Assembly (NCBI RefSeq): GCF_033971325.1 | Contig: NZ_CP117180.1 | Coordinates: 130,041-194,040 of the forward strand | DNA from: Hydrogenobacter sp. T-2 | Lineage (GTDB): Bacteria; Aquificota; Aquificia; Aquificales; Aquificaceae | Reading direction: 5' to 3' | Length of the DNA: 64,000 nucleotides | Shown: positions 1 to 39,658 of the stretch, one piece after another | Position numbering within the stretch: the stretch's first letter is position 1 | Layout of the letters: every line of letters begins with the position of its first letter | Program-made: the position numbers and the translations under genes | The notes under the pieces: model-generated | Databases searched by the model: none | The model's input: the letters and a program-made list of their open reading frames with translations, nothing else | What the model was told of the DNA's origin: nothing

Positions 1-32
1 GTGCCTTTGGTCAAACCTTTTATAGGGATATA

Positions 33-242
33 ATGCCAAACCTTGAGGATTTTCCAGAGCCAATAAGAGAGGTTATATTGCAGGTAGAAAAAGTCCACTG
101 CGAATTCCATGAAATAGGCAAGCAAATAGACACCGAAAACCCAGACGAAGCCCTTGTTAAAGAGATGCAGGATACTTCCTTAACCCTTTATCAGCTTTTG
201 ATGAGGTTGGAACGCATGCTTATTGGGGTTAAAAAAGTTTAA
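33..242 (+). CDS. small hypothetical protein, 69 aa
   Basis: A short acidic/leucine-rich helical protein with no signal peptide, membrane segment or motif I recognise. The ATG follows a purine stretch (TAGGGA) that could act as a weak ribosome binding site; the region upstream is too short in the window to define a promoter. It ends inside the first element of the regulatory repeat that drives the next operon, so it is probably a separate upstream transcription unit. Function unknown; reality of the gene is moderately supported by codon use and by the fact that nothing else fills the stretch. Confidence 0.5.
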   Translation: MPNLEDFPEPIREVILQVEKVHCEFHEIGKQIDTENPDEALVKEMQDTSLTLYQLLMRLERMLIGVKKV

Positions 243-279
243 CATGCTTAACCAAATCTTAACAATTATCTTCTATAAT
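238..279 (+). promoter_or_regulatory. Pho-box-like promoter of the P1B-ATPase operon
   Basis: CTTAAC occurs at 247-252 and again at 258-263, an 11-bp period (unit CTTAACCAAAT), with a weaker TTTAAC at 238-243. Ten bases after the last repeat lies a perfect TATAAT (274-279), the geometry of PhoB-activated promoters where the box replaces the -35. The ATG at 288 is 8 nt after the -10, so the transcript should be leaderless. The same layout precedes phoX in this window. Confidence 0.72.
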
Positions 280-287
280 CTTCTGCA

Positions 288-662
288 ATGATTGAGTATG
301 TATCTCTCAGAAAAGGTGAGGCAAGGCTCTACTTTTCAAGCACTGCGGAAAGGGAGCTTTTTCTCCGTGGCATGAACGGGGTGGAGGGGGTTGAGGGGGT
401 GGAATACAAGGAAAATACAAGGACGCTTCTGATTAGGTTCAAAGAGGGTAGTTTTGCCCACTATCTTATAGAAAATCTTAAACGCGAAAAGGACTATCAA
501 AGATTGGAGGGTGAGGATGTAAACTTCTACCTTCAGCCTTTCCTCAAGCATCCAGTGATAAAGCTCGCCTTTAGCACCGCACTGCTTGGCTGGAAGGTAG
601 GCTTGATTTCCTTTGCGGTTTGCAGTATGTTTTTAACTCCATACCTTAAAAGTAATCTCTAA
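288..662 (+). CDS. HMA2-like domain protein with C-terminal membrane segment, 124 aa
   Basis: The first ~80 residues look like a ferredoxin-fold HMA-type domain without the CxxC metal site, similar to the N-terminal part of the P-type ATPase two genes downstream. Residues ~95-118 are hydrophobic and probably form a membrane hairpin or single helix. There is no Shine-Dalgarno; the ATG sits 8 nt after a -10 box, consistent with a leaderless first gene of the operon. CDS order continues with two small membrane proteins and the ATPase, so a role in the same membrane system is inferred. Cysteine-less HMA-like domains of this sort accompany P1B-6 ATPases in other bacteria; direct metal binding is not indicated by the sequence. 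Confidence 0.7.
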   Translation: MIEYVSLRKGEARLYFSSTAERELFLRGMNGVEGVEGVEYKENTRTLLIRFKEGSFAHYLIENLKREKDYQRLEGEDVNFYLQPFLKHPVIKLAFSTALLGWKVGLISFAVCSMFLTPYLKSNL

Positions 663-673
663 GGAGGTAAGGC

Positions 674-988
674 ATGTTTAATGTGAGTATTCCAAGCACC
701 ATAGGTGGATGCCTTTCCACCAACATGATGTTGTACGGTTTTGGTGCCCTTGCGGGGCTCGTGGTCCTTAGTAGGCTCATGAGGGATGCAAGACCTTTTC
801 TTGTGTCTACTACTAAGGAGGTTATAGCCTTTCAGCAGTGGCTCAGCGGAAACCTTGAAGAGGGCAAAGAGTTCTGGGAGGACGTGGTCTCTGAAGCCAA
901 GCACCTCTATAGGCTTGAGGTGGAGAAAAAGTTAGAAATTCTCCAAAAACAGCAGGAGATACTACAAAGAATAAAAGAAAGACTGTGA
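674..988 (+). CDS. small membrane-anchored coiled-coil protein (DUF5132-like), 104 aa
   Basis: An N-terminal hydrophobic segment containing small-residue spacing (YGFGALAGLVVL, residues ~17-33) is followed by a long amphipathic, Glu/Lys-rich helix ending in a predicted coiled coil. This is the layout of short DUF5132-type proteins that travel with P1B ATPases, though I cannot confirm the family without a profile search. A strong AAGGAGG stands 7 nt before the ATG. It lies between the HMA-like protein and another small membrane protein, all codirectional. The glycine pattern could mediate helix packing in a membrane. Function unknown. Confidence 0.65.
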   Translation: MFNVSIPSTIGGCLSTNMMLYGFGALAGLVVLSRLMRDARPFLVSTTKEVIAFQQWLSGNLEEGKEFWEDVVSEAKHLYRLEVEKKLEILQKQQEILQRIKERL

Positions 989-1000
989 GGAGGTAAGGAC

Positions 1001-1204
1001 ATGAACCAGATAACTTCTATTCTTGGAAAGGCAGTATGCTCTGGTCCCTTTAGTTTTGCTTTCGGCTTTGGTATTGGCCTATTAGCCTTTTATATGCTCG
1101 ATAGGGCAAAGGAAAGGAGAAGGCTTGAAGAAACACAAAGAGAGATAGAAGCTATGGTTAAAGCCCTTGAGCTAAAGCTCCAGCAGGAGAGCAAGACAGA
1201 ATGA
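1001..1204 (+). CDS. small membrane protein with charged coiled-coil tail, 67 aa
   Basis: Contains one membrane helix with a GxGxG-type pattern (FGFGIGLLAF, residues ~21-31) followed by a highly charged helix (Arg/Glu/Lys). Its plan resembles the preceding 104-aa protein and suggests a shared scaffold role. GAGGAGG precedes the ATG. Its stop overlaps the ATPase start (ATGA), indicating translational coupling. It resembles no enzyme. Confidence 0.65.
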   Translation: MNQITSILGKAVCSGPFSFAFGFGIGLLAFYMLDRAKERRRLEETQREIEAMVKALELKLQQESKTE

Positions 1205-3324
1205 CCTACAAGGTAGAAAAGCTATCTCCTGGAAGACTGAGGCTTACCTCATACCTCTTTCAGTATCTACATCATCCTGACGAGACCTTAAGGGCTTACT
1301 TTTCAAGGTTTGGTGGTGTAAGGAGGGTGAGCTATTCAAGATCTTCTGGAAGGCTTATCCTTGAGTATGACACAAAGAACTTTGACCTTATAGAGTTTCT
1401 AAGCCATATTGAAAACACACCTCGTGATGTCTTTCTTGAGGACCTATCAAGGGAAAAGCAAAGCAAACAAAAAGAGGCTAATGGAGCTTCTCGTTGGCTT
1501 ATGCTTAGCACCTTGGGCTTTCTGCCCTACCTTATGAGGGGTCTTCTGCCCACCTCCTTGCTCGCAGGCATGACCCTGCTCCTTTCCAAGCCTGTTTTTG
1601 AAAAGGCGATTAGCTCTCTTAGAAAGGGTAAACTGGACGTGCATATGCTTGACTCCTCTGCCATAGCATTGGCAAGCCTTACAGGCAGTCCACTCTCTGC
1701 CCATACCATGGTCTTTCTCCTTGCCCTCGGTGATTACCTCTCTGAAAGGGTGGAAAGGAAGGCTTATGAGAAGATTGAAAAGCTCTTTTCTTACAAAGAG
1801 GACACTGCTTGGCTTATGATAGGCAACGGTCAGGCGGTAAAGGTAAAAGCCCTTGACCTCAAAAGGGGAGACCTTATAGCGGTCTACGCAGGGGAGAAGA
1901 TACCAGCGGACGGTGTAGTGGAAGAGGGAGATGCCCTTGTAAATCAAGCATCTCTTACAGGAGAATCTAACCCTGTCCACAAAAAGACGGGAGACAAGGT
2001 CTTTGCAGGAACCTTTGTGGAAGATGGCAAGCTCTACATAAGGGTGGAAGAGGTAGGAGAAGAGACGGTAGTGGCAAAGATAGCCAAGATAGTGGAAGAG
2101 AGCATAAAAGAGCCCATAAACATCCAAAGGATGGCAGAAGAAACAGCCAATAGATTGGTTATGCCCACAATAGGTCTTGGTGCTCTCTCTTATATCACAA
2201 GCGGTCAAATAAGCAGGCTCACTTCAACACTAATAATAGACTATCACACCGGCATTCACCTTGCCACACCTCTGACAGTGCTCTCCAGCGTGGCACAGGC
2301 TTCCACCTATGGCATCCTCATAAAGAGCGGTGGAAAACTTGAGGCTCTCTCAAGGGTAGACACCTTTGTGATGGACAAGACGGGCACTCTAACGGTGGGG
2401 CATCCAGTCATAGAAGATGTGGTGGGTCTTGAGGTTTCAGAGGATGAGACCCTTCTGTATTCTGCTTCTCTTGAGCAGAGGATAACTCATCCGGTGGCAA
2501 GGGCTATAGTAAAGCTCGCAGAAGCAAAAGGCTTGGAGCTCCTGCCAAGAGAAAACTCTCAATACCACATAGGTCTTGGAATAGAGGGTGAGCTAAATGG
2601 CACGAAGTTTATGCTTGGAAGCACGCGCTTTATGCAGAAAAAGAAGATAAGGATAAGCCAAGAAATAAGAAGCCTTGTGGACAAGTTTCACTCAGAGGCA
2701 AAGTCTGTGCTGTATCTTGTGAGAGAGAGAAAGATAGTAGGGCTTCTTACCTTCAGAGACCCTCTCAGGGAAGATGCAAAGGATGTGGTGGCGGAGCTAA
2801 AAAGAAGGGGCAAAAGGGTGGTGCTTTGCACGGGAGACAATGAGGGCATAGCCAAGTATATGGCAAAGGAGCTTGGTATAGAGGAGTATTATGCAAGGGT
2901 ATTCCCTGCGGAGAAGGCAAAGGTGGTGGAAAAGCTCAAAAAACAGGGAAGGGTGGTAGCCTTTGTGGGTGATGGTGTAAACGATTCGCCTGCTCTTTCT
3001 GTTGCGGACGTGGGTATTTCTCTGAGGAGCGGGACGGATATAGCTATAGAGGTGGCGGACGTGGTTATAGGGGACAGCCTTTGGCATCTTGTGGATGTGG
3101 TGGACATAGCGGAAAGAACTATAAGAAAATTAAAGACCATATACAGATTAAACGGTCTTGCAAACACGGTGGGTCTTATTGGGTCCGCCTTGGGACTCTT
3201 TGGTCCCTCAGTTTCAACGCTTATAAACAACGGCACTACAGTGCTGTTGGGCTTATATTCCATAAAAAACCCTAAGGAGGTGAAAAGCCATGGAAGAGAA
3301 GAAGGACCTTGCACAAGAGCTTGA
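1201..3324 (+). CDS. P1B-type (P1B-6-like) metal-transporting ATPase with cysteine-less TM4 motif
   Basis: A 707-aa P-type ATPase. Visible motifs: actuator TGES (253-256), phosphorylation DKTGT with Asp392, the P1B-specific HP dipeptide (430-431) and hinge GDGVND (590-595). The N-terminus holds a degenerate HMA-like domain without CxxC and an Arg-containing PGRLRL motif. The intramembrane metal site, normally CPC/SPC/TPC or SCA, reads D-Y-H-T-G at 347-351. Alignment of DY-HTG with the DY-SCA of the P1B-6 subclass suggests that subclass, but with no cysteine. Family members export or compartmentalise transition metals using ATP; P1B-6 enzymes are linked with iron, including ferrosome organelles. 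The substrate here is therefore uncertain. The gene is flanked by small membrane and coiled-coil proteins in one operon under a Pho-box-like promoter. Confidence 0.93.
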   Translation: MTYKVEKLSPGRLRLTSYLFQYLHHPDETLRAYFSRFGGVRRVSYSRSSGRLILEYDTKNFDLIEFLSHIENTPRDVFLEDLSREKQSKQKEANGASRWLMLSTLGFLPYLMRGLLPTSLLAGMTLLLSKPVFEKAISSLRKGKLDVHMLDSSAIALASLTGSPLSAHTMVFLLALGDYLSERVERKAYEKIEKLFSYKEDTAWLMIGNGQAVKVKALDLKRGDLIAVYAGEKIPADGVVEEGDALVNQASLTGESNPVHKKTGDKVFAGTFVEDGKLYIRVEEVGEETVVAKIAKIVEESIKEPINIQRMAEETANRLVMPTIGLGALSYITSGQISRLTSTLIIDYHTGIHLATPLTVLSSVAQASTYGILIKSGGKLEALSRVDTFVMDKTGTLTVGHPVIEDVVGLEVSEDETLLYSASLEQRITHPVARAIVKLAEAKGLELLPRENSQYHIGLGIEGELNGTKFMLGSTRFMQKKKIRISQEIRSLVDKFHSEAKSVLYLVRERKIVGLLTFRDPLREDAKDVVAELKRRGKRVVLCTGDNEGIAKYMAKELGIEEYYARVFPAEKAKVVEKLKKQGRVVAFVGDGVNDSPALSVADVGISLRSGTDIAIEVADVVIGDSLWHLVDVVDIAERTIRKLKTIYRLNGLANTVGLIGSALGLFGPSVSTLINNGTTVLLGLYSIKNPKEVKSHGREEGPCTRA

Positions 3325-3565
3325 AAGGATTAAGACAGAGCTTGAGGAGCTAAAGAAGAAGATGGGTATTGCGGAGGAGGAAAAGAGCCTAAAGGACCTC
3401 CCTGCGGAAGCCCTCTCAAAGGTTATGGAAGTTAGCAAAGAGATAGTCAAAACCACTGCGGAGATCGGAGAAAAGGCTCTCAAGGTTGTAAAGTATTCCG
3501 TTGAAGGTGCAGTAGAAGGTGCAAAGAAGGCTCTAAAGGAAGAGGAGAAGAAGGAACAAGGATGA
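3290..3565 (+). CDS. amphipathic coiled-coil protein, 91 aa
   Basis: Almost entirely predicted helix: a Lys/Glu heptad-like segment (residues ~5-30) followed by an amphipathic A/V/K/E-rich helix (~45-85) of the kind that binds membranes or packs against another helix. No cysteines, no signal peptide. It overlaps the 3' end of the ATPase gene by 35 bp and has AAGGAGGTG before its ATG, so coexpression is near certain. A structural role beside the ATPase is inferred from position only. Confidence 0.72.
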   Translation: MEEKKDLAQELERIKTELEELKKKMGIAEEEKSLKDLPAEALSKVMEVSKEIVKTTAEIGEKALKVVKYSVEGAVEGAKKALKEEEKKEQG

Positions 3566-3819
3566 ACTTTATAAGGACAAGGAGCGGAAGGTATCTTAAT
3601 ACTCTGCATGTTATATCCCTCTCGGTAGAGGAGGCAAAAATAGAGATAGAGGGCAAAAAGAGGCTGGTTTACAAGGTGGTTGCCTACATGAGCCAGCCTC
3701 TCCTTCCTGCGGTTTTGGGCATATACTCCACAGAAGAGAAGGCTTTTGAGGTCCTGGAGGACATCATTAGGAGGCTATCTCAGGATGAAAGGGTCATACA
3801 CATTGAAAGCGAATACTGA
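3562..3819 (+). CDS. hypothetical protein, 85 aa
   Basis: A small soluble alpha/beta protein of the type Aquificales and Firmicutes encode as short conserved hypotheticals: begins MNFIRTRSGRYLNT, has alternating strand-like segments, ends in an acidic tail. Start overlaps the preceding stop by 4 bp, so it belongs to the ATPase operon. No recognised catalytic residues. Function unknown. Confidence 0.6.
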   Translation: MNFIRTRSGRYLNTLHVISLSVEEAKIEIEGKKRLVYKVVAYMSQPLLPAVLGIYSTEEKAFEVLEDIIRRLSQDERVIHIESEY

Positions 3820-4138
3820 AGACTACATAAGGGAGCTTAAACTTCTTGCTCATCATATACAGGAGACGCACGGAGAAGTTCTCAAAAACATACAAGAACC
3901 CATCTTACTTGAAGTGGAGCTTCCTGAGAGAGAGATCGCACTATTTATCATAAGCTCCGAAGGAATTCGTCAAGCCATTAGCACTCAGGAAGCTAAAAAT
4001 GTGGTAAAAGTAAACTACAAAGACCTTATGAGGCTCGTGGAAAAACCCTCAAGGATAATCCGCTACATCTTTGAAGGGAGGGTAAGAATAAAGGGAGACT
4101 ACCAAAGAATTCTCTCCATCCTACAAAATCTTCTCTAA
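3785..4138 (+). CDS. SCP2-like sterol/lipid carrier domain protein, 117 aa
   Basis: The C-terminal half (KVNYKDLMRLVEKP, then an IFEGRVRIKGDY segment) matches the end of SCP2/sterol-carrier-like domains, in which an R/KGD..K element closes the fold. The open frame extends upstream inside the previous gene; I chose the ATG at 3785, and a TTG at 3803 with GAAAGGG upstream is an alternative. It overlaps the previous gene by 35 bp. SCP2-like proteins bind lipids or acyl groups, which would fit a membrane-compartment operon, but the ligand is unknown. Confidence 0.6.
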   Translation: MKGSYTLKANTEDYIRELKLLAHHIQETHGEVLKNIQEPILLEVELPEREIALFIISSEGIRQAISTQEAKNVVKVNYKDLMRLVEKPSRIIRYIFEGRVRIKGDYQRILSILQNLL

Positions 4139-4341
4139 AGAAGTCTGTTTATTGCCTTGGTTATGAGGTTTTCTATTAGCCCACCCACCACGAAGGACTC
4201 AATTAGTATGGTTCTGTCCTTTTCGGTAAGGAAGGTATCCCTTTCGCGTTTTCTGAGTTTCTCCCCCTTCTTAAGAAATCTCCTGTAGCAGTCCTTCTCC
4301 CTCTCAATCTCTTGGATTAGTGCCTCTATCCTCTCCTTCAT
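4135..4341 (-). CDS. small helical protein under Pho-box-like control, 68 aa
   Basis: A charged helical protein (Glu/Lys/Arg-rich first 45 residues, more hydrophobic C-terminus). I do not recognise it. Support for expression is the promoter: two CTTAAC repeats 11 bp apart and a -10-like hexamer just upstream, in the same geometry as phoX. The ATG lies 7 nt from the hexamer, so translation would be leaderless. It converges on the SCP2-like gene with a 4-bp overlap. A small effector of the phosphate response is possible but speculative. Confidence 0.55.
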   Translation of the reverse strand: MKERIEALIQEIEREKDCYRRFLKKGEKLRKRERDTFLTEKDRTILIESFVVGGLIENLITKAINRLL

Positions 4342-4348
4342 GTTAGAT

Positions 4349-4381
4349 AGTTTAACTGAAAAGTGTTAAGATTTTGTTAAG
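4349..4381 (-). promoter_or_regulatory. Pho-box-like promoter of the 68-aa ORF
   Basis: On the minus strand CTTAAC occurs at 4381-4376 and 4370-4365 (unit CTTAACAAAAT, 11-bp period). Ten bases downstream is TAAACT (4354-4349, 4 of 6 to TATAAT), then 7 nt to the ATG at 4341. No Shine-Dalgarno is present. Confidence 0.6.
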
Positions 4382-4421: not shown

Positions 4422-5525
4422 TTAAACAAGGACTCCTTGGTAAACATCAAGAAGTTTTTCAAAAGTAGCATTCCAAGAGAAATTACTAAGCACAAAGGAG
4501 CTGACCTTTTCTTTGTTAACCAGACTCACCTCGTTGCAGGCACGGACTATGGCGTGGTAGAAGGCTTCCAAAGTGAGCTCTTTTACCAAAAACTCCTTAA
4601 AAGGTTGTGTTTCAAGACCCATATCATAGGCAACCAGCAGACAACCACAAGCCTGAGCTTCAAGAAAGGCAAGCCCGTAGGTTTCTCCTGTAGAGGTGCT
4701 CACAAAGATATCACAGCTTGCATAAACTTTTGCCAAATCCTCTTCTCTTTGGAGGTATCCAAGATAGGTGAGGTTAGGAAGTTTCTGAGATAGCCTTTCT
4801 ACTCTTTTCCTTAGAGGACCGTCTCCTACCACCACAAGATGGAAAAGGGTAGGGTCAAGGTGTTGAAAGACTTCTAAGAGAAGGTCTAAGTTTTTCTCTG
4901 GCGAGAGCCTACCAGCGTATATTAGCTTAAATCTACCAGCATATATGCCAAGGGCTTTTTCAAAGTATGGGTCTCTTTTAGAGGGGTTAAAGACCTCCGT
5001 ATCCACTCCGAGGTTTACAGTGATTATGTTTTCAAGACCGCAGGCCATTAAAAACTCCTCCTGCACCCTTGAGGGGGTTATTATAAGGTCTGCCTTTGCG
5101 AGCTTTTTTCTTATGGTATGCTCCAAAAGCACCCTTTTGAGCCTTTCTGGAGCGGGCAAAAGCGAAAGGTCCGTCCTTATGTCAGAATGGTAAAAGACGC
5201 TTAGTAGATAGTTGTCAGACTTTAAATGATTTATGGGTTGATAGGTGCCACCCAGCTCTACTACATCAGGCTCCTCTATTTTCAGTATTTCCCTTATCTC
5301 CGCAAAGGAGGAGAAGAACCTATAACCACCTGTTAAAGGCAGAGGAAAGGAGGGAAGCTCGTAGACCTTGGTGGAGTTAATATGGTATGTTCTTCTTTCC
5401 TTTCCGGGTATTATAAGCACATGCTCTATACCCTTTTTCTGCATATACTTGCTTTTTTCAAGAAGGTATCTCCTTATACCTCCGCTTTTGCTATGAAAGT
5501 ATGGGGTTATGTCAACAAGTTTCAT
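4422..5525 (-). CDS. GT4-family glycosyltransferase, 367 aa
   Basis: A GT-B fold retaining glycosyltransferase of family GT4. The N-terminus carries the acceptor-domain signature (DITPYFHSKSGGIRRYLLE). The C-terminal half has the donor site: LIYAGRLSPEKNLDLLLE, VVGDGPLR and the EX7E region STGETYGLAFLEAQACG. It would transfer a sugar from a nucleotide-sugar to a lipid or sugar acceptor at the inner face of the membrane. An in-frame start five codons earlier exists, but the ATG at 5525 has GGGAGG upstream and is preferred; the gene overlaps the end of the PHP-GT4 gene. Last gene of a three-gene operon behind a four-repeat Pho-box-like promoter, suggesting glycolipid synthesis when phosphate is scarce. 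Confidence 0.88.
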   Translation of the reverse strand: MKLVDITPYFHSKSGGIRRYLLEKSKYMQKKGIEHVLIIPGKERRTYHINSTKVYELPSFPLPLTGGYRFFSSFAEIREILKIEEPDVVELGGTYQPINHLKSDNYLLSVFYHSDIRTDLSLLPAPERLKRVLLEHTIRKKLAKADLIITPSRVQEEFLMACGLENIITVNLGVDTEVFNPSKRDPYFEKALGIYAGRFKLIYAGRLSPEKNLDLLLEVFQHLDPTLFHLVVVGDGPLRKRVERLSQKLPNLTYLGYLQREEDLAKVYASCDIFVSTSTGETYGLAFLEAQACGCLLVAYDMGLETQPFKEFLVKELTLEAFYHAIVRACNEVSLVNKEKVSSFVLSNFSWNATFEKLLDVYQGVLV

Positions 5526-7758
5526 GGACAAGCCTCCCAAGACCAGCTATGGCTAACATGTAGTCTATGTAAGTTTTTCTCATATCAAGGCTTCTTGCGT
5601 AGTATAGGGCTTCTTGAGACATACTTCTCCTTAGGCTTTCATTGGATAGAAGAAGGGAGAGCTTTTCTACAAAGTCCTCGGGCTTTGTGGCTATAAAGCC
5701 ATTTACACCCTCTTGAACATGCTCGTGAGATGCACCCTTTGAGCTTACTACCACAGGAAGACCGCTTGCCATAGCCTCTAAAACCACTTGCCCATAGGTC
5801 TCTGTTTCAGAGGGGAATAAAAACGCGTCAGAGCTTGCGTAAGCGGTAGCCAGCTCCTCTCCCACCATATAACCCACAAGGTGCACATTCTTTGGTTTTT
5901 TGTTCTCTATCTCTTTCCTATAGGGTCCATCTCCCACTATCACAAAGATGTCTTCGGGGAAGCATTTGGCAGTGTAAAGGAAAGTATCCAAACCCTTTTC
6001 TTTGGAAACCCTACCCACATATAGGATAACTCTTTGGTGCTTTTTAACTCCGAGCCTTTTAGACCAGAAGTCCTCATCTCTTTTGTAAGGAGAGAAGAGC
6101 TCTGTATCCACACCGCGTTTGAAGGTGCTTATCTTACTGTTATGTAATCCCTTATTTATAAAGGTCTTCATGTAGTGTTCTGAAGGGACAAAAAACTTGT
6201 CTGAAATATTACCAAGAAAGACAAAGGCTTTCCATAGAAGACTTTCCACTTCGGGGTCTCCCGTATATGTTCTTGCGTATGTGGGTATGTCTGTGTGGAA
6301 GGCAGAGGTAATCCTAAGACGGAGAATCTTACCCACAAGAAATCCCATAAGTCCAAGAGGACCTGGCGTGGCTATGTGAACTTGAGTAAAGCCTTCCCTC
6401 TCAAGAAGGTCCATAAGCTCTATCAGGTTTGGAAGACCCATTTTTAACTCTTCGTAAAAGGGTGTGGGTATCTCCACAATAGGCTCTAAGTTTATGAGCT
6501 TTTCCTCTTCCTTCACCTGTGAGTTAGAAACTATTATTGTGAAGGGTAGGTCTTCCTCAAGGGCTATCTGTCTTATGAGCTTAGCACTTCTTGCAACGCC
6601 GTTTATATGGTGGTAGGTGTCTGTAAGGTAGGCAACCTTTGGAGACCTTCCGTTGAGTATACCAAACTCTTTTCCAAGAACCTTTATCTTTTCCTCTTCC
6701 CTTTTTTGGGCGTATTTTAAAAAGGCGGGGAAGCCATGAGCCATGAGGGACAGGCATAGCTCCCCAAGGGTTTGCGGTGAGGGGCTTTTCAAAAACCTTT
6801 CCAAAGTAAAAGAGGGCAGTTTTTTTGCTATTTCCCTCAATAGGTCTGACCTCTCGGACTTTATACCGAGAAAATTTCTCAAAAGCATACCCACCAGTGG
6901 GTTGTCTGAGTGCATAAAGACATAATCGGTTATGGGTCTCACTTCAGAGGGTATATGGTTTTTGCTCTTTAAGAAGTCATAGCCTACTCTGCATATCATG
7001 TTTAGAAGCCTTTTGTCTCCCAGCTCTTCTGTATCCACATGCGTTCTCCCTTCCCATAGACCCCTTAAAAAGTCCTCTTTGCTTACCGCACCCTCAACCG
7101 CAGTCCAAGTCTTTCCCACGTCCATTCCACCATGGTCATCTGAGCCTGCGGTGAAGGCTATTCTATCTCTTATCCTCTGAGGCTCTATCCTGTGTCTTTC
7201 CGCAAGGGCATGTATCTTATCCCATCCATCGTAGGCACGGGCTATGGACTCTTCCACATACCTAACATTGTCTCCCCTTGTCCCGTTTATCACCTCCCAG
7301 TTGTCAAAGAGTAAAACCAACTTTTCTAAAAGGCTACGGGTTATCTTAGTTCCCTGAACAGAATATAGAGGATGGGCAAGGGAGTGGGCTATTCTATGAG
7401 ACTTTAGGTATTTGACAAAATCGTAAAGGTTGTTTCTTAGCCTTAGAAGGTCTTGATGTTGAGCCTCCGTGATGCCGTATACCAGCACATGAACCTTTCC
7501 CTTCTCTTCGGGAATTTCCACCGTATACTCACAGCTTATAAAGACCTCAGGAAGATGTGCCAGCTCAAGGACTCCGTTTATGGTGTTGTGGTCTGTAATG
7601 GTTATAAAGCTCATACCCCTGTCTTTGAGCCTTTTGTATATCTCCATAGGCTCTGTGAAGCTCTCTGGACATCCCACCAGCCTACTAAACCAACCCCCCG
7701 GCAGGTTGGAAGCCTTTGAATGAAGGTGCAAGTCCGCTTTTGCTAAGTAATTCCCCAT
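5512..7758 (-). CDS. PHP-domain / GT4 glycosyltransferase fusion, 748 aa
   Basis: Two domains. Residues ~1-240 are a PHP metal-dependent phosphoesterase-like domain: ADLHLHS near residue 8, TDHN near 57, then AHPL and a GSDDHGG motif. Residues ~370-740 are a GT4 glycosyltransferase (VAYLTDTYHHINGVARSAK; RGVDTELF; ILYVGRVSKEKGLD; VGDGPYR; ETETYGQVVLEAMASGLPVV). GT4 enzymes of this kind build phosphate-free glycolipids or mannosides; the PHP domain may hydrolyse a phosphate monoester in the same route. Both domains look intact. It overlaps the downstream GT4 gene and the upstream DUF2334 gene, so it is the middle gene of one operon. The acceptor and sugar cannot be read from sequence. Confidence 0.88.
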   Translation of the reverse strand: MGNYLAKADLHLHSKASNLPGGWFSRLVGCPESFTEPMEIYKRLKDRGMSFITITDHNTINGVLELAHLPEVFISCEYTVEIPEEKGKVHVLVYGITEAQHQDLLRLRNNLYDFVKYLKSHRIAHSLAHPLYSVQGTKITRSLLEKLVLLFDNWEVINGTRGDNVRYVEESIARAYDGWDKIHALAERHRIEPQRIRDRIAFTAGSDDHGGMDVGKTWTAVEGAVSKEDFLRGLWEGRTHVDTEELGDKRLLNMICRVGYDFLKSKNHIPSEVRPITDYVFMHSDNPLVGMLLRNFLGIKSERSDLLREIAKKLPSFTLERFLKSPSPQTLGELCLSLMAHGFPAFLKYAQKREEEKIKVLGKEFGILNGRSPKVAYLTDTYHHINGVARSAKLIRQIALEEDLPFTIIVSNSQVKEEEKLINLEPIVEIPTPFYEELKMGLPNLIELMDLLEREGFTQVHIATPGPLGLMGFLVGKILRLRITSAFHTDIPTYARTYTGDPEVESLLWKAFVFLGNISDKFFVPSEHYMKTFINKGLHNSKISTFKRGVDTELFSPYKRDEDFWSKRLGVKKHQRVILYVGRVSKEKGLDTFLYTAKCFPEDIFVIVGDGPYRKEIENKKPKNVHLVGYMVGEELATAYASSDAFLFPSETETYGQVVLEAMASGLPVVVSSKGASHEHVQEGVNGFIATKPEDFVEKLSLLLSNESLRRSMSQEALYYARSLDMRKTYIDYMLAIAGLGRLVHETC

Positions 7759-8431
7759 AGCTTATTAACCTCCTTTCCTTTTTTATATTGCTTAGTATTT
7801 CTTTCCAAAGCCTGACCTTTCTCTCGTCTCTAAAGTCTGTCATATGAAGTGCAAGCCTGAGAACTTGGTGGTCTTTGTAGAGCCTTTGCATGCTGGGAAG
7901 AGCCTTTAAGCTAAGCCAAGACAGAAGATTTCTACTGCTAAAGCTAAGAACGGGAGAGCTTATGCTTTTTTCATTGCCTAAGTCTTTTATATGCCACCTG
8001 TAGGCTACGCCTTCAAAACCAAGAGAGTAAAGCACATCCTCAAGGTAAGGATTTCCTATCCATGCGGGTGGGACAAAGATGGTGGTTTTTAGACCGAGGT
8101 ATTCCATAAGCTCCAAGCCTGAGCGAACCCTCTCATAGGTTTCAATTAGGTCAAGTCCTCCAAACTCTCCCTCCCCGTCCGTCCAAAGCAGGTCTTGAAG
8201 CCTTTTTTTGCCTTTGTGTGTATAACCGTGCAATACTAACTCCGCTCCGAGGTTTTTTATGAGGTTCAAAAAGTTCCCATCTCCTCTCAGTGGTGCATAT
8301 TCCCAGAAGTAAGGCACTACCAAGAGGGAAAATCTATTCAATTCCACATCCTCTAAAAGCTCAAGGGCACTTAAAAACTCCACCCTATAGTAAGGGCTCA
8401 CATCATGCAGTTCCACTATTGCGAGCTTCAT
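7685..8431 (-). CDS. DUF2334-like polysaccharide-deacetylase-fold protein, 248 aa
   Basis: Begins MKLAIVELHDVSPYY, the N-terminal Asp/His-containing strand of the NodB/DUF2334 fold, with a second metal-type motif LHGYTHKG near residue 92. These resemble metal-dependent deacetylases of the carbohydrate esterase 4 fold. There is no signal peptide, so it acts in the cytoplasm, perhaps on a glycolipid or nucleotide-sugar intermediate. It is the first gene of the operon with the two GT4 enzymes and overlaps the second gene by 74 bp. The ATG is 7 nt from the -10 of the Pho-box-like promoter and has no Shine-Dalgarno, so a leaderless start is likely. Confidence 0.75.
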   Translation of the reverse strand: MKLAIVELHDVSPYYRVEFLSALELLEDVELNRFSLLVVPYFWEYAPLRGDGNFLNLIKNLGAELVLHGYTHKGKKRLQDLLWTDGEGEFGGLDLIETYERVRSGLELMEYLGLKTTIFVPPAWIGNPYLEDVLYSLGFEGVAYRWHIKDLGNEKSISSPVLSFSSRNLLSWLSLKALPSMQRLYKDHQVLRLALHMTDFRDERKVRLWKEILSNIKKERRLISYGELLSKSGLAPSFKGFQPAGGLV

Positions 8432-8438
8432 GAGAATA

Positions 8439-8493
8439 AGGATAGGTTGGAAAAGTTAAGATTTCTTTAAGGTTTGGTTAAGATTTGGTTAAG
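8439..8493 (-). promoter_or_regulatory. four-repeat Pho-box-like promoter of the DUF2334-GT4 operon
   Basis: On the minus strand four repeats stand at exact 11-bp steps: CTTAAC (8493-8488), CTTAAC (8482-8477), CTTAAA (8471-8466) and CTTAAC (8460-8455), i.e. two tandem 22-bp boxes. Ten bases downstream of the last is TATCCT (8444-8439) as -10, then 7 nt to the ATG at 8431. This is the most complete example of the motif in the window. Confidence 0.78.
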
Positions 8494-37697: not shown

Positions 37698-37733
37698 AGT
37701 CTTAATGAAATCTTAACAGTAATACCTTATCTT
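37693..37733 (+). promoter_or_regulatory. Pho-box-like promoter of phoX
   Basis: CTTAAT (37701-37706) and CTTAAC (37712-37717) are 11 bp apart, with an additional CTTAAA at 37693. Ten bases later is TATCTT (37728-37733), then 8 nt to the ATG. This is the promoter whose gene identifies the motif as phosphate-linked. Confidence 0.7.
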
Positions 37734-37741
37734 TAGAAACC

Positions 37742-39658
37742 ATGGGAGAATACTTTGAAGAGATTTTGGAAAGGGCGATTAGCCGTAGAGATGTTCTAAA
37801 AGGGATGCTGTTGGGTAGTGTTGTGCTGGGACTATCTCCTAAAGTTTCCTTCTCAAAAAGTTTGGGCTTTAGAAGCATTCAACCAAGCACAGAGGATAGG
37901 ATAATTCTGCCAGAAGGTTTTGAATATGTGGTGCTCATACGCTGGGGTGATGCCTTAGACAAAGGACCATCTCTTGACTGGAAGAGGATTTACGAAAAAG
38001 GTCCTTCATGGGAGGATGTGGAGCGTCAAAAATTTTCCTTTGGATATAACTGTGATTATGTAGGTTTTTTCAGACTGTCGGATGATAGGGCACTGCTTGT
38101 GGTAAACCATGAATATACAAATCCAGAGCTTATGTTTTCCAATTTTGCTCCCTCGGGGCAAAGACCAACCAGAGAAGAAGCTATGCTTATGTTAGAAGCA
38201 CATGGCGTGTCTGTGGTAGAAATAAGAAAGTCCAATGGTAAGTGGCATTATGTGAAAGGCTCACCTTACAATAGAAGGATAACAGGCTCTACCAGATGTG
38301 AAATAAGCGGTCTTGCAAAAGGGCACACACTCATGAAATCCTCCTACGATAAGGAAGGTGAGTTCGTATATGGCACTCTAAATAACTGCTCTGGTGGTAA
38401 AACTCCTTGGGGAACGGTGTTAACCTGTGAAGAGAACTTTCATAGCTACTTTTGGGGAGACGAGTTTAAGATAGAACACCCTAAAGCAAGGTTGATACAG
38501 GAACTTCACTACCGTTATAGGGTTCCCAGTGAGTGGGCTATGGTGTATGGTTTTTATAAATACAGTGAGCGTTTCAATATAGAAAAGGAGCCTACAGAAC
38601 CACTTCGTTTCGGTTGGGTGGTAGAGGTTGACCCATTTAACCCTACAAAACCACCTATAAAGAGAACCGCTCTCGGAAGGTTCAAGCACGAAGCAGCAAA
38701 CTGTGTAGTAGCACCAGATGGTAGGGTGGTGGTCTATATGGGAGATGACGAAAGGTTTGAGTATGTCTATAAGTTTATTACAAAGGGTAAATATGACCCT
38801 AACAACAGGCAAGCAAACATGGACCTTCTTGATGAGGGTGAGCTATATGTGGCAAAGTTCAAGGATGACCTTACTGGAGAGTGGATACTTATAGCCAAGT
38901 GCGAAAAAAAGCCAGATGGCACTTATGCTATAACACCCAATCCAGACCTTCCTGAACCTTTCAAAAGCGACCCAGTCCTTTGTTTCATAAACACAAGAGG
39001 CGCTGCGGATGCACTTGGAGCTACCATGATGGACAGACCAGAAGATATAGAATGGAATCCGTTGACAAAAAGTGCATGGGTAGCTCTAACCTTTAATGAA
39101 AGAAGAGGGGCAAGCGGGCAACCGGGAACTGACAGAGCTAACCCCAGAGCGAACAATGTAATGGGGCACGTGTTAGAGATAAAAGAGGCAAACGGTAATC
39201 CTGCGTCAACCACATTCACGTGGCAAATACCAATACTTTGTGGTGATCCCAACGCTTCTGAAGAAAACAAGAAATTGATAATTTACGGTCAACCTGCAAG
39301 CTCCTCAACGCCTGCTATTTCTGCACCAGACAACTTTGTGATAGATAGGCTCGGAAACGTATGGATAGCCACAGATGGCAATCCAAACTCCTCAAGACTC
39401 AAGAAGAACGACGGAGTTTACGTGCTTAATCCCTTTACTAAAGAATTTAAAATGTTCCTCTCTGGAGTGCCTGGCTGTGAAATATGCGGACCTGAGTTTT
39501 CGGATGACTGGAAAACCTTTTTCTGTGCCATACAACACCCAGGAGAGGGTGGTTTAGGGGGTCAACTAACAAGATGGCCATATGAGAGCGATATTCCAAT
39601 TCCAAGACCTTCGGTAATAGCAGTCTGGAGGAAGGACGGAGGAGAAATATTTGCATAA
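37742..39658 (+). CDS. phoX: PhoX-type alkaline phosphatase (DUF839), Tat-exported
   Basis: A 638-aa secreted phosphatase. The N-terminus has a twin-arginine motif SRRDVLKGM followed by a hydrophobic stretch, so it is exported folded. PhoX motifs: GYNCDYVGFF, NHEYTNPE, GGKTPWGTVLTCEENFHSY and the C-terminal GPEFSDDWKTFFCAIQHPGEGG. PhoX enzymes use iron and calcium and release phosphate from organic esters. Pho-box-like repeats directly upstream support induction by phosphate limitation; the ATG is predicted to start a leaderless message. Confidence 0.94.
   Translation: MGEYFEEILERAISRRDVLKGMLLGSVVLGLSPKVSFSKSLGFRSIQPSTEDRIILPEGFEYVVLIRWGDALDKGPSLDWKRIYEKGPSWEDVERQKFSFGYNCDYVGFFRLSDDRALLVVNHEYTNPELMFSNFAPSGQRPTREEAMLMLEAHGVSVVEIRKSNGKWHYVKGSPYNRRITGSTRCEISGLAKGHTLMKSSYDKEGEFVYGTLNNCSGGKTPWGTVLTCEENFHSYFWGDEFKIEHPKARLIQELHYRYRVPSEWAMVYGFYKYSERFNIEKEPTEPLRFGWVVEVDPFNPTKPPIKRTALGRFKHEAANCVVAPDGRVVVYMGDDERFEYVYKFITKGKYDPNNRQANMDLLDEGELYVAKFKDDLTGEWILIAKCEKKPDGTYAITPNPDLPEPFKSDPVLCFINTRGAADALGATMMDRPEDIEWNPLTKSAWVALTFNERRGASGQPGTDRANPRANNVMGHVLEIKEANGNPASTTFTWQIPILCGDPNASEENKKLIIYGQPASSSTPAISAPDNFVIDRLGNVWIATDGNPNSSRLKKNDGVYVLNPFTKEFKMFLSGVPGCEICGPEFSDDWKTFFCAIQHPGEGGLGGQLTRWPYESDIPIPRPSVIAVWRKDGGEIFA

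Follow-up and report, generated by a model that had tools for sequence, protein, structure and literature searches.

The PHO box is defined by its architecture of tandem 11-nt repeats (PMC4415409), and a survey published in 2026 identified neither PhoP nor PhoR in Aquificales (PMC13170248). The reported control of ferrosomes is by iron and Fur, and the Clostridioides difficile ferrosome has been described with FezA and FezB only (PMC12574912); FezC, a DUF4405-type cytochrome (PMC11334425), is a component of only some ferrosome (fez) clusters. The window analyzed here, i.e., the whole stretch of 64,000 nucleotides from Hydrogenobacter sp. T-2, a member of the Aquificaceae living in hot springs (contig NZ_CP117180.1, positions 130,041 to 194,040), contains a seven-gene operon encoding a FezB-like P1B-type ATPase. 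Taken as a whole, our explanation, in which a Pho-type activated promoter would drive an operon for a ferrosome-like compartment, appears probable to us with good confidence.

Promoter of the P1B ATPase operon

On the forward strand, the Pho box (247-263) consists of a first CTTAAC (247-252), the spacer CAAAT and a second CTTAAC (258-263) with an 11-bp period, and it is followed exactly 10 bp downstream by the -10 hexamer TATAAT (274-279) and, 8 nt further, by the ATG at 288 (ORF 288-662), as the initial annotation had read these letters. No -35 consensus stands at the usual distance from this TATAAT. Further upstream, a TTTAAC at 238-243 precedes the first repeat by 9 bp instead of 11 and, being out of register, is probably not part of the box. 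The same annotation considered the layout identical to that in front of phoX (37742-39658, +; a 638-aa alkaline phosphatase, PhoX E=4.7e-43). This holds for the spacings, with CTTAAT at 37701, CTTAAC at 37712, 10 bp, TATCTT at 37728-37733 and 8 nt to the ATG at 37742, but not for the letters, since the phoX box (37701-37717, +) has one mismatched half-site and its -10 is TATCTT. Using a position-weight matrix trained on 31 Pho promoters, from which all fez and 68-aa-gene sites were excluded, the fez promoter reached 37.6 bits, within the range of the training promoters (21.9-38.3), while the background maximum was 7.5 over 135,738 positions. At the same promoter, the search for a Fur-like palindrome gave nothing with fewer than 4 mismatches. 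Judged from its sequence, 247-279 is a PhoB/PhoP-type promoter with a genuine Pho box and is under selection, and phosphate (Pho) control is the best reading for the operon, which we predict with high confidence. Because the operon has the same promoter switch as phosphate-starvation genes, cells would probably induce it under a shortage of phosphate and not of iron.

Two further Pho promoters of the window were absent from the initial annotation. One of them (4381-4349, -) serves a conserved gene convergent with the operon, which encodes a 68-aa charged protein (MKERI..., 4135-4341, -); its box is CTTAACAAAATCTTAAC (4365-4381, -), and its -10 (TAAACT, 4349-4354, -) is located 10 bp from the box. 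The other (8493-8439, -) contains an array of four repeats (8455-8493, -) upstream of the neighboring operon 4422-8431 (-), which encodes a DUF2334 protein and two glycosyltransferases closest to glycolipid synthases (GlcN-PG synthase and MGlcDAG synthase families) and likely remodels membrane lipids under phosphate starvation. At four Pho promoters (279-288, 4348-4341, 8438-8431 and 37733-37742) the ATG stands only 7-8 nt past the -10, and the corresponding mRNAs are therefore expected to lack a leader. Where a -10 can be recognized in fez orthologues, it stands 7-13 nt from the start, without a Shine-Dalgarno sequence. Note that a protein with a CZB (zinc-binding) domain is encoded directly upstream of the operon (L062 17918-18283, overlapping window positions 1-242), and that its orthologue in genome G042 has a perfect Pho promoter of its own.

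Reach and conservation of the Pho element

Our genome-wide statements rest on pattern searches. In the genome itself, the composite element CTTAAC-N5-CTTAAC, 10 bp, TANNNT precedes pstSCAB, phoU (followed by a histidine kinase), phoX and the fez-like operon, and further sites were found at the 68-aa convergent gene, the DUF2334/glycosyltransferase operon, a roadblock/MglA/GGDEF-EAL-like operon, a DUF302 gene and arsC, whose sequence looks like that of a low-molecular-weight arsenate reductase. Nine good sites are counted, and five of them fall inside ~16 kb (genome 122,157-138,533), namely those of pst, the roadblock/GGDEF operon, fez, the 68-aa gene and the glycosyltransferase operon. In congeners, the element also precedes PhnD, Porin_O_P, PhoD and additional PhoX genes. 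A TANNNT starts exactly 10 bp past the second half-site in all eight own-genome promoters and in 48 of 53 distinct genus sites, compared with 0-13% of the genus sites at other distances from the box and a background rate of 0.019 per position. With these sites, a Pho regulon of Aquificota would take a first shape, in a group for which the recent survey found no PhoPR.

Two members of this set deserve separate mention. The arsC site (L246 1053-1533, -; genome about 961 kb) is a Pho-type promoter with one mismatch and a -10 in phase, and would link arsenate defence with phosphate starvation. Beside pstS, the Pho-boxed operon L062 10161-14539 (-) encodes a 169-aa protein together with roadblock/MglA-like and GGDEF/EAL-like genes (by sequence appearance), which suggests that cells answer phosphate starvation through c-di-GMP or polarity.

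Conservation of the 11-bp repeats across Aquificales, a check proposed with the initial annotation, was then compared with that of the surrounding DNA. The box stands directly before g1, the first gene of the operon, 805-967 bp ahead of fezB, in 14 of the 15 family orthologues whose upstream DNA is readable, and is degenerate in the remaining one (a Thermocrinis MAG). Among the 14 orthologues, pairwise identity amounts to 99% in the half-sites, 27% in the 40 bp upstream and 40% in the 10-bp gap, i.e., the box was kept while its flanks diverged. In Hydrogenobaculum, whose clusters have an ATPase with 41-42% identity, all five show ATTAAC-N5-CTTAAC-N10-TAAGAT/TAAAAT before the first gene, and in Sulfurihydrogenibium-type clusters the element precedes a gene about 1.5 kb upstream. 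Because the box is kept in these three groups, the pattern that the initial annotation had named as speaking against phosphate control, in which orthologous operons lack the repeats while phoX keeps them, was not observed. The clusters of G078, G123 and one Caldimicrobium have no convincing box; in another Caldimicrobium cluster, TTTAAC stands three times, in phase with a TAAGAT. A short local match (E=4e-6) made the first gene of the Sulfurihydrogenibium clusters look like a PhoU; this identity was discarded, Pfam giving no PhoU match. It should also be mentioned that contigs labelled Acidobacteria J001 (L126) and Caldimicrobium (L124) contain Aquificaceae-type fez clusters that are 73-76% identical, and probably come from mis-binned or misnamed MAGs. 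With the same promoter found before pstS, phoU and phoX and kept at orthologous operons, the phosphate control proposed at the outset is supported.

In G036, whose neighboring glycosyltransferases are 95% identical, the same promoter is followed by a remnant of g1 and then directly by the glycosyltransferase genes (L202 5988-6228); the other operon genes have been lost along with the 68-aa gene, and a Pho-boxed PhoX gene is kept. From this gene content, PhoX is predicted to be independent of the fez-like operon, because a genome without the operon keeps its Pho-boxed PhoX gene. As a close relative lacking only the fez operon, G036 offers a natural comparison. In G029 (L081), fezB and g1 are broken by stops and frameshifts, and both Pho promoters are intact.

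Proposed role of the operon and alternative readings

The operon (g1-g7, 288-4138, +) adjoins the convergent 68-aa gene, and this gene order is kept over three Aquificota families. The first three products have one predicted hydrophobic helix each: g1 (288-662, 124 aa, predicted leaderless start) combines an alpha/beta N-terminal domain (weakly HMA_2-like) with a C-terminal helix, g2 (674-988, 104 aa) adds a charged tail to its helix, and g3 (1001-1204, 67 aa) has a glycine-rich helix and a coiled-coil-like tail. The predicted structure of g1, a low-confidence model, shows a ferredoxin-like order of elements, and the fold search gave no significant PDB match to it. The FezB-like P1B-type ATPase (1201-3324, 707 aa) has an N-terminal HMA_2-like region and IDYHTGI replacing CPC. 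It is followed by g5 (3290-3565, 91 aa, charged and helical), g6 (3562-3819, 85 aa, conserved in the cluster) and g7 (3785-4138), an SCP-2-like domain protein (PF02036, 24.8 bits vs a cut-off of 21.3).

In the tree, the ATPase clade (Aquificota and Caldimicrobium) is sister to the D-[YF]-S-C-A ATPases (100/99 support), both being separate from CPC and CPH pumps; the D[YF]SCA group is presumably the P1B-6 class, to which FezB belongs. A P1B ATPase of the D[YF]SCA type also occurs in a distant phylum, in the Thermodesulfobacteriota genome G464, where it is flanked by a g2 homologue (E=5e-13) and an HMA_2 protein; g2 is thereby a candidate for a FezA-type small membrane protein. Chlorobiaceae, archaeal and similar matches from the collection scan, considered as Fez relatives, turned out to be ordinary CPC or CPH pumps.

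We propose that an OmpR-family response regulator of phosphate starvation would bind the two tandem 11-bp CTTAAC units, standing in for the -35, and recruit RNA polymerase to the -10 located exactly 10 bp downstream (class II activation), presumably after phosphorylation at low phosphate. In promoters activated by PhoB or PhoP, the box replaces the -35, and the position of the box together with the fixed 10-bp phasing of the -10 therefore argues for activation rather than repression. The regulator would switch on the operon as well as the convergent 68-aa gene, the latter from its own identical element. The operon would most likely build a ferrosome-like membrane compartment, in which small single-helix membrane proteins may shape or scaffold the membrane while Fe2+ would be the most likely metal loaded by the P1B-6-like ATPase; phosphate may be used as mineral partner, or the cell may be shielded from iron freed at phosphate scarcity. 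The mineral of the C. difficile ferrosome is reportedly iron phosphate (Pi et al. 2023). If the conserved Pho promoter drives such a cluster, iron storage would be tied to phosphate status.

Several other readings were weighed against this one. That the CTTAAC repeats could be functionless in AT-rich intergenic DNA finds some echo in lone sites with one or two mismatches, which are frequent genome-wide (chiefly within coding DNA), and in one exact match that recurs in the genus (genome position 103232, CTTAACACCTCCTTAAC) and is merely the iscU ribosome-binding site on the other strand. Nevertheless, the counts refute such a chance origin, to which we assign practically no weight: the window has six sites with at most one mismatch vs 0.49 expected (0 of 100 shuffles reached six), exact CTTAAC-N5-CTTAAC pairs number 96 vs 1 for the reversed control (summed over 14 congeneric genomes), and 37 of 136 Aquificota genomes contain the composite promoter (box and phased -10), the reversed control giving zero matches; the exact -10 phasing and the selective conservation are to be added to these counts. 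The repeats could also be bound by another OmpR-type regulator, e.g., an envelope- or metal-responsive one, whose regulon merely overlaps phosphate genes. The genome encodes four OmpR-type response regulators, none of them clearly PhoB; the best fit (L089, near 771 kb) scores 236.6 bits against TIGR02154, under the equivalog cut-off of 296.2 that no response regulator exceeds, and the DUF302 gene and the roadblock/GGDEF-type operon are boxed as well. However, phosphate genes (pst, phoU, phoX, PhnD, Porin_O_P, PhoD and arsC) make up most of the targets that could be identified, and an arrangement of tandem 11-bp units is what defines a PHO box (PMC4415409), so that we regard this alternative as very unlikely.

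A reading that we hold possible, with more doubt than conviction, accepts Pho control and sees in the operon a plasma-membrane system of metal efflux or allocation instead of an organelle, which would detoxify Fe2+ or Mn2+ freed at low phosphate or supply iron to PhoX. PhoX enzymes use iron, PhoX belongs to the same regulon, and the ATPase is a P1B pump. Nevertheless, G036 keeps its Pho-boxed PhoX gene without the operon, and both the several co-conserved small membrane or coiled-coil proteins and the g2 homologue found elsewhere beside a P1B-6-type ATPase are easier to reconcile with a scaffolded compartment than with a pump acting alone. A ferrosome-like compartment thus remains the likely product of the operon as predicted from its genes, a reading to which we attach modest confidence. 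More tentatively, the ferrosome-type organelle of Aquificota may be a phosphate-starvation organelle, i.e., a compartment that co-manages iron and phosphate and is commanded by a Pho regulator, not by iron and Fur. Such a Pho context would make the function of this unstudied P1B subtype accessible to tests.

Comparison with described Pho and ferrosome systems

The absence of an earlier phosphate link for such a cluster, already noted in the initial annotation, agrees with our literature search, which found no link between ferrosomes and phosphate or Pho, between a Pho box and a P-type ATPase, or between Aquificales and a Pho regulon, although this is weak evidence as coverage of subscription journals was partial. 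In the literature searched, the metal-ATPase cluster is an unreported member of a Pho regulon.

As in the PhoB promoters of E. coli and the PhoP promoters of B. subtilis, two 11-nt direct repeats stand upstream of the -10, and as in known Pho regulons, the element is common to pst, phoU, phosphatase and phosphonate genes. The half-site CTTAAC(A) is similar to the PhoP site of B. subtilis (TTAACA) and to the cyanobacterial site (CTTAACC). It differs from the CTGTCAT of E. coli (PMC4415409).

With the ferrosome (fez) clusters of Desulfovibrio magneticus, Rhodopseudomonas palustris, Shewanella and Clostridioides difficile, the operon has in common a P1B ATPase akin to the D[YF]SCA type, small membrane proteins encoded beside it, and HMA_2-like domains. 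In contrast to these clusters, the ATPase motif is D-Y-H-T-G instead of D-[YF]-S-C-A, with H-T where the latter has S-C; no FezC/DUF4405 domain was detected in g1-g7 by domain search; g5-g7 and the 68-aa gene come in addition; and the predicted control is by Pho rather than Fur. The association of a Pho promoter with a ferrosome-like operon is, in this comparison, a new combination of two known kinds and not a new kind.
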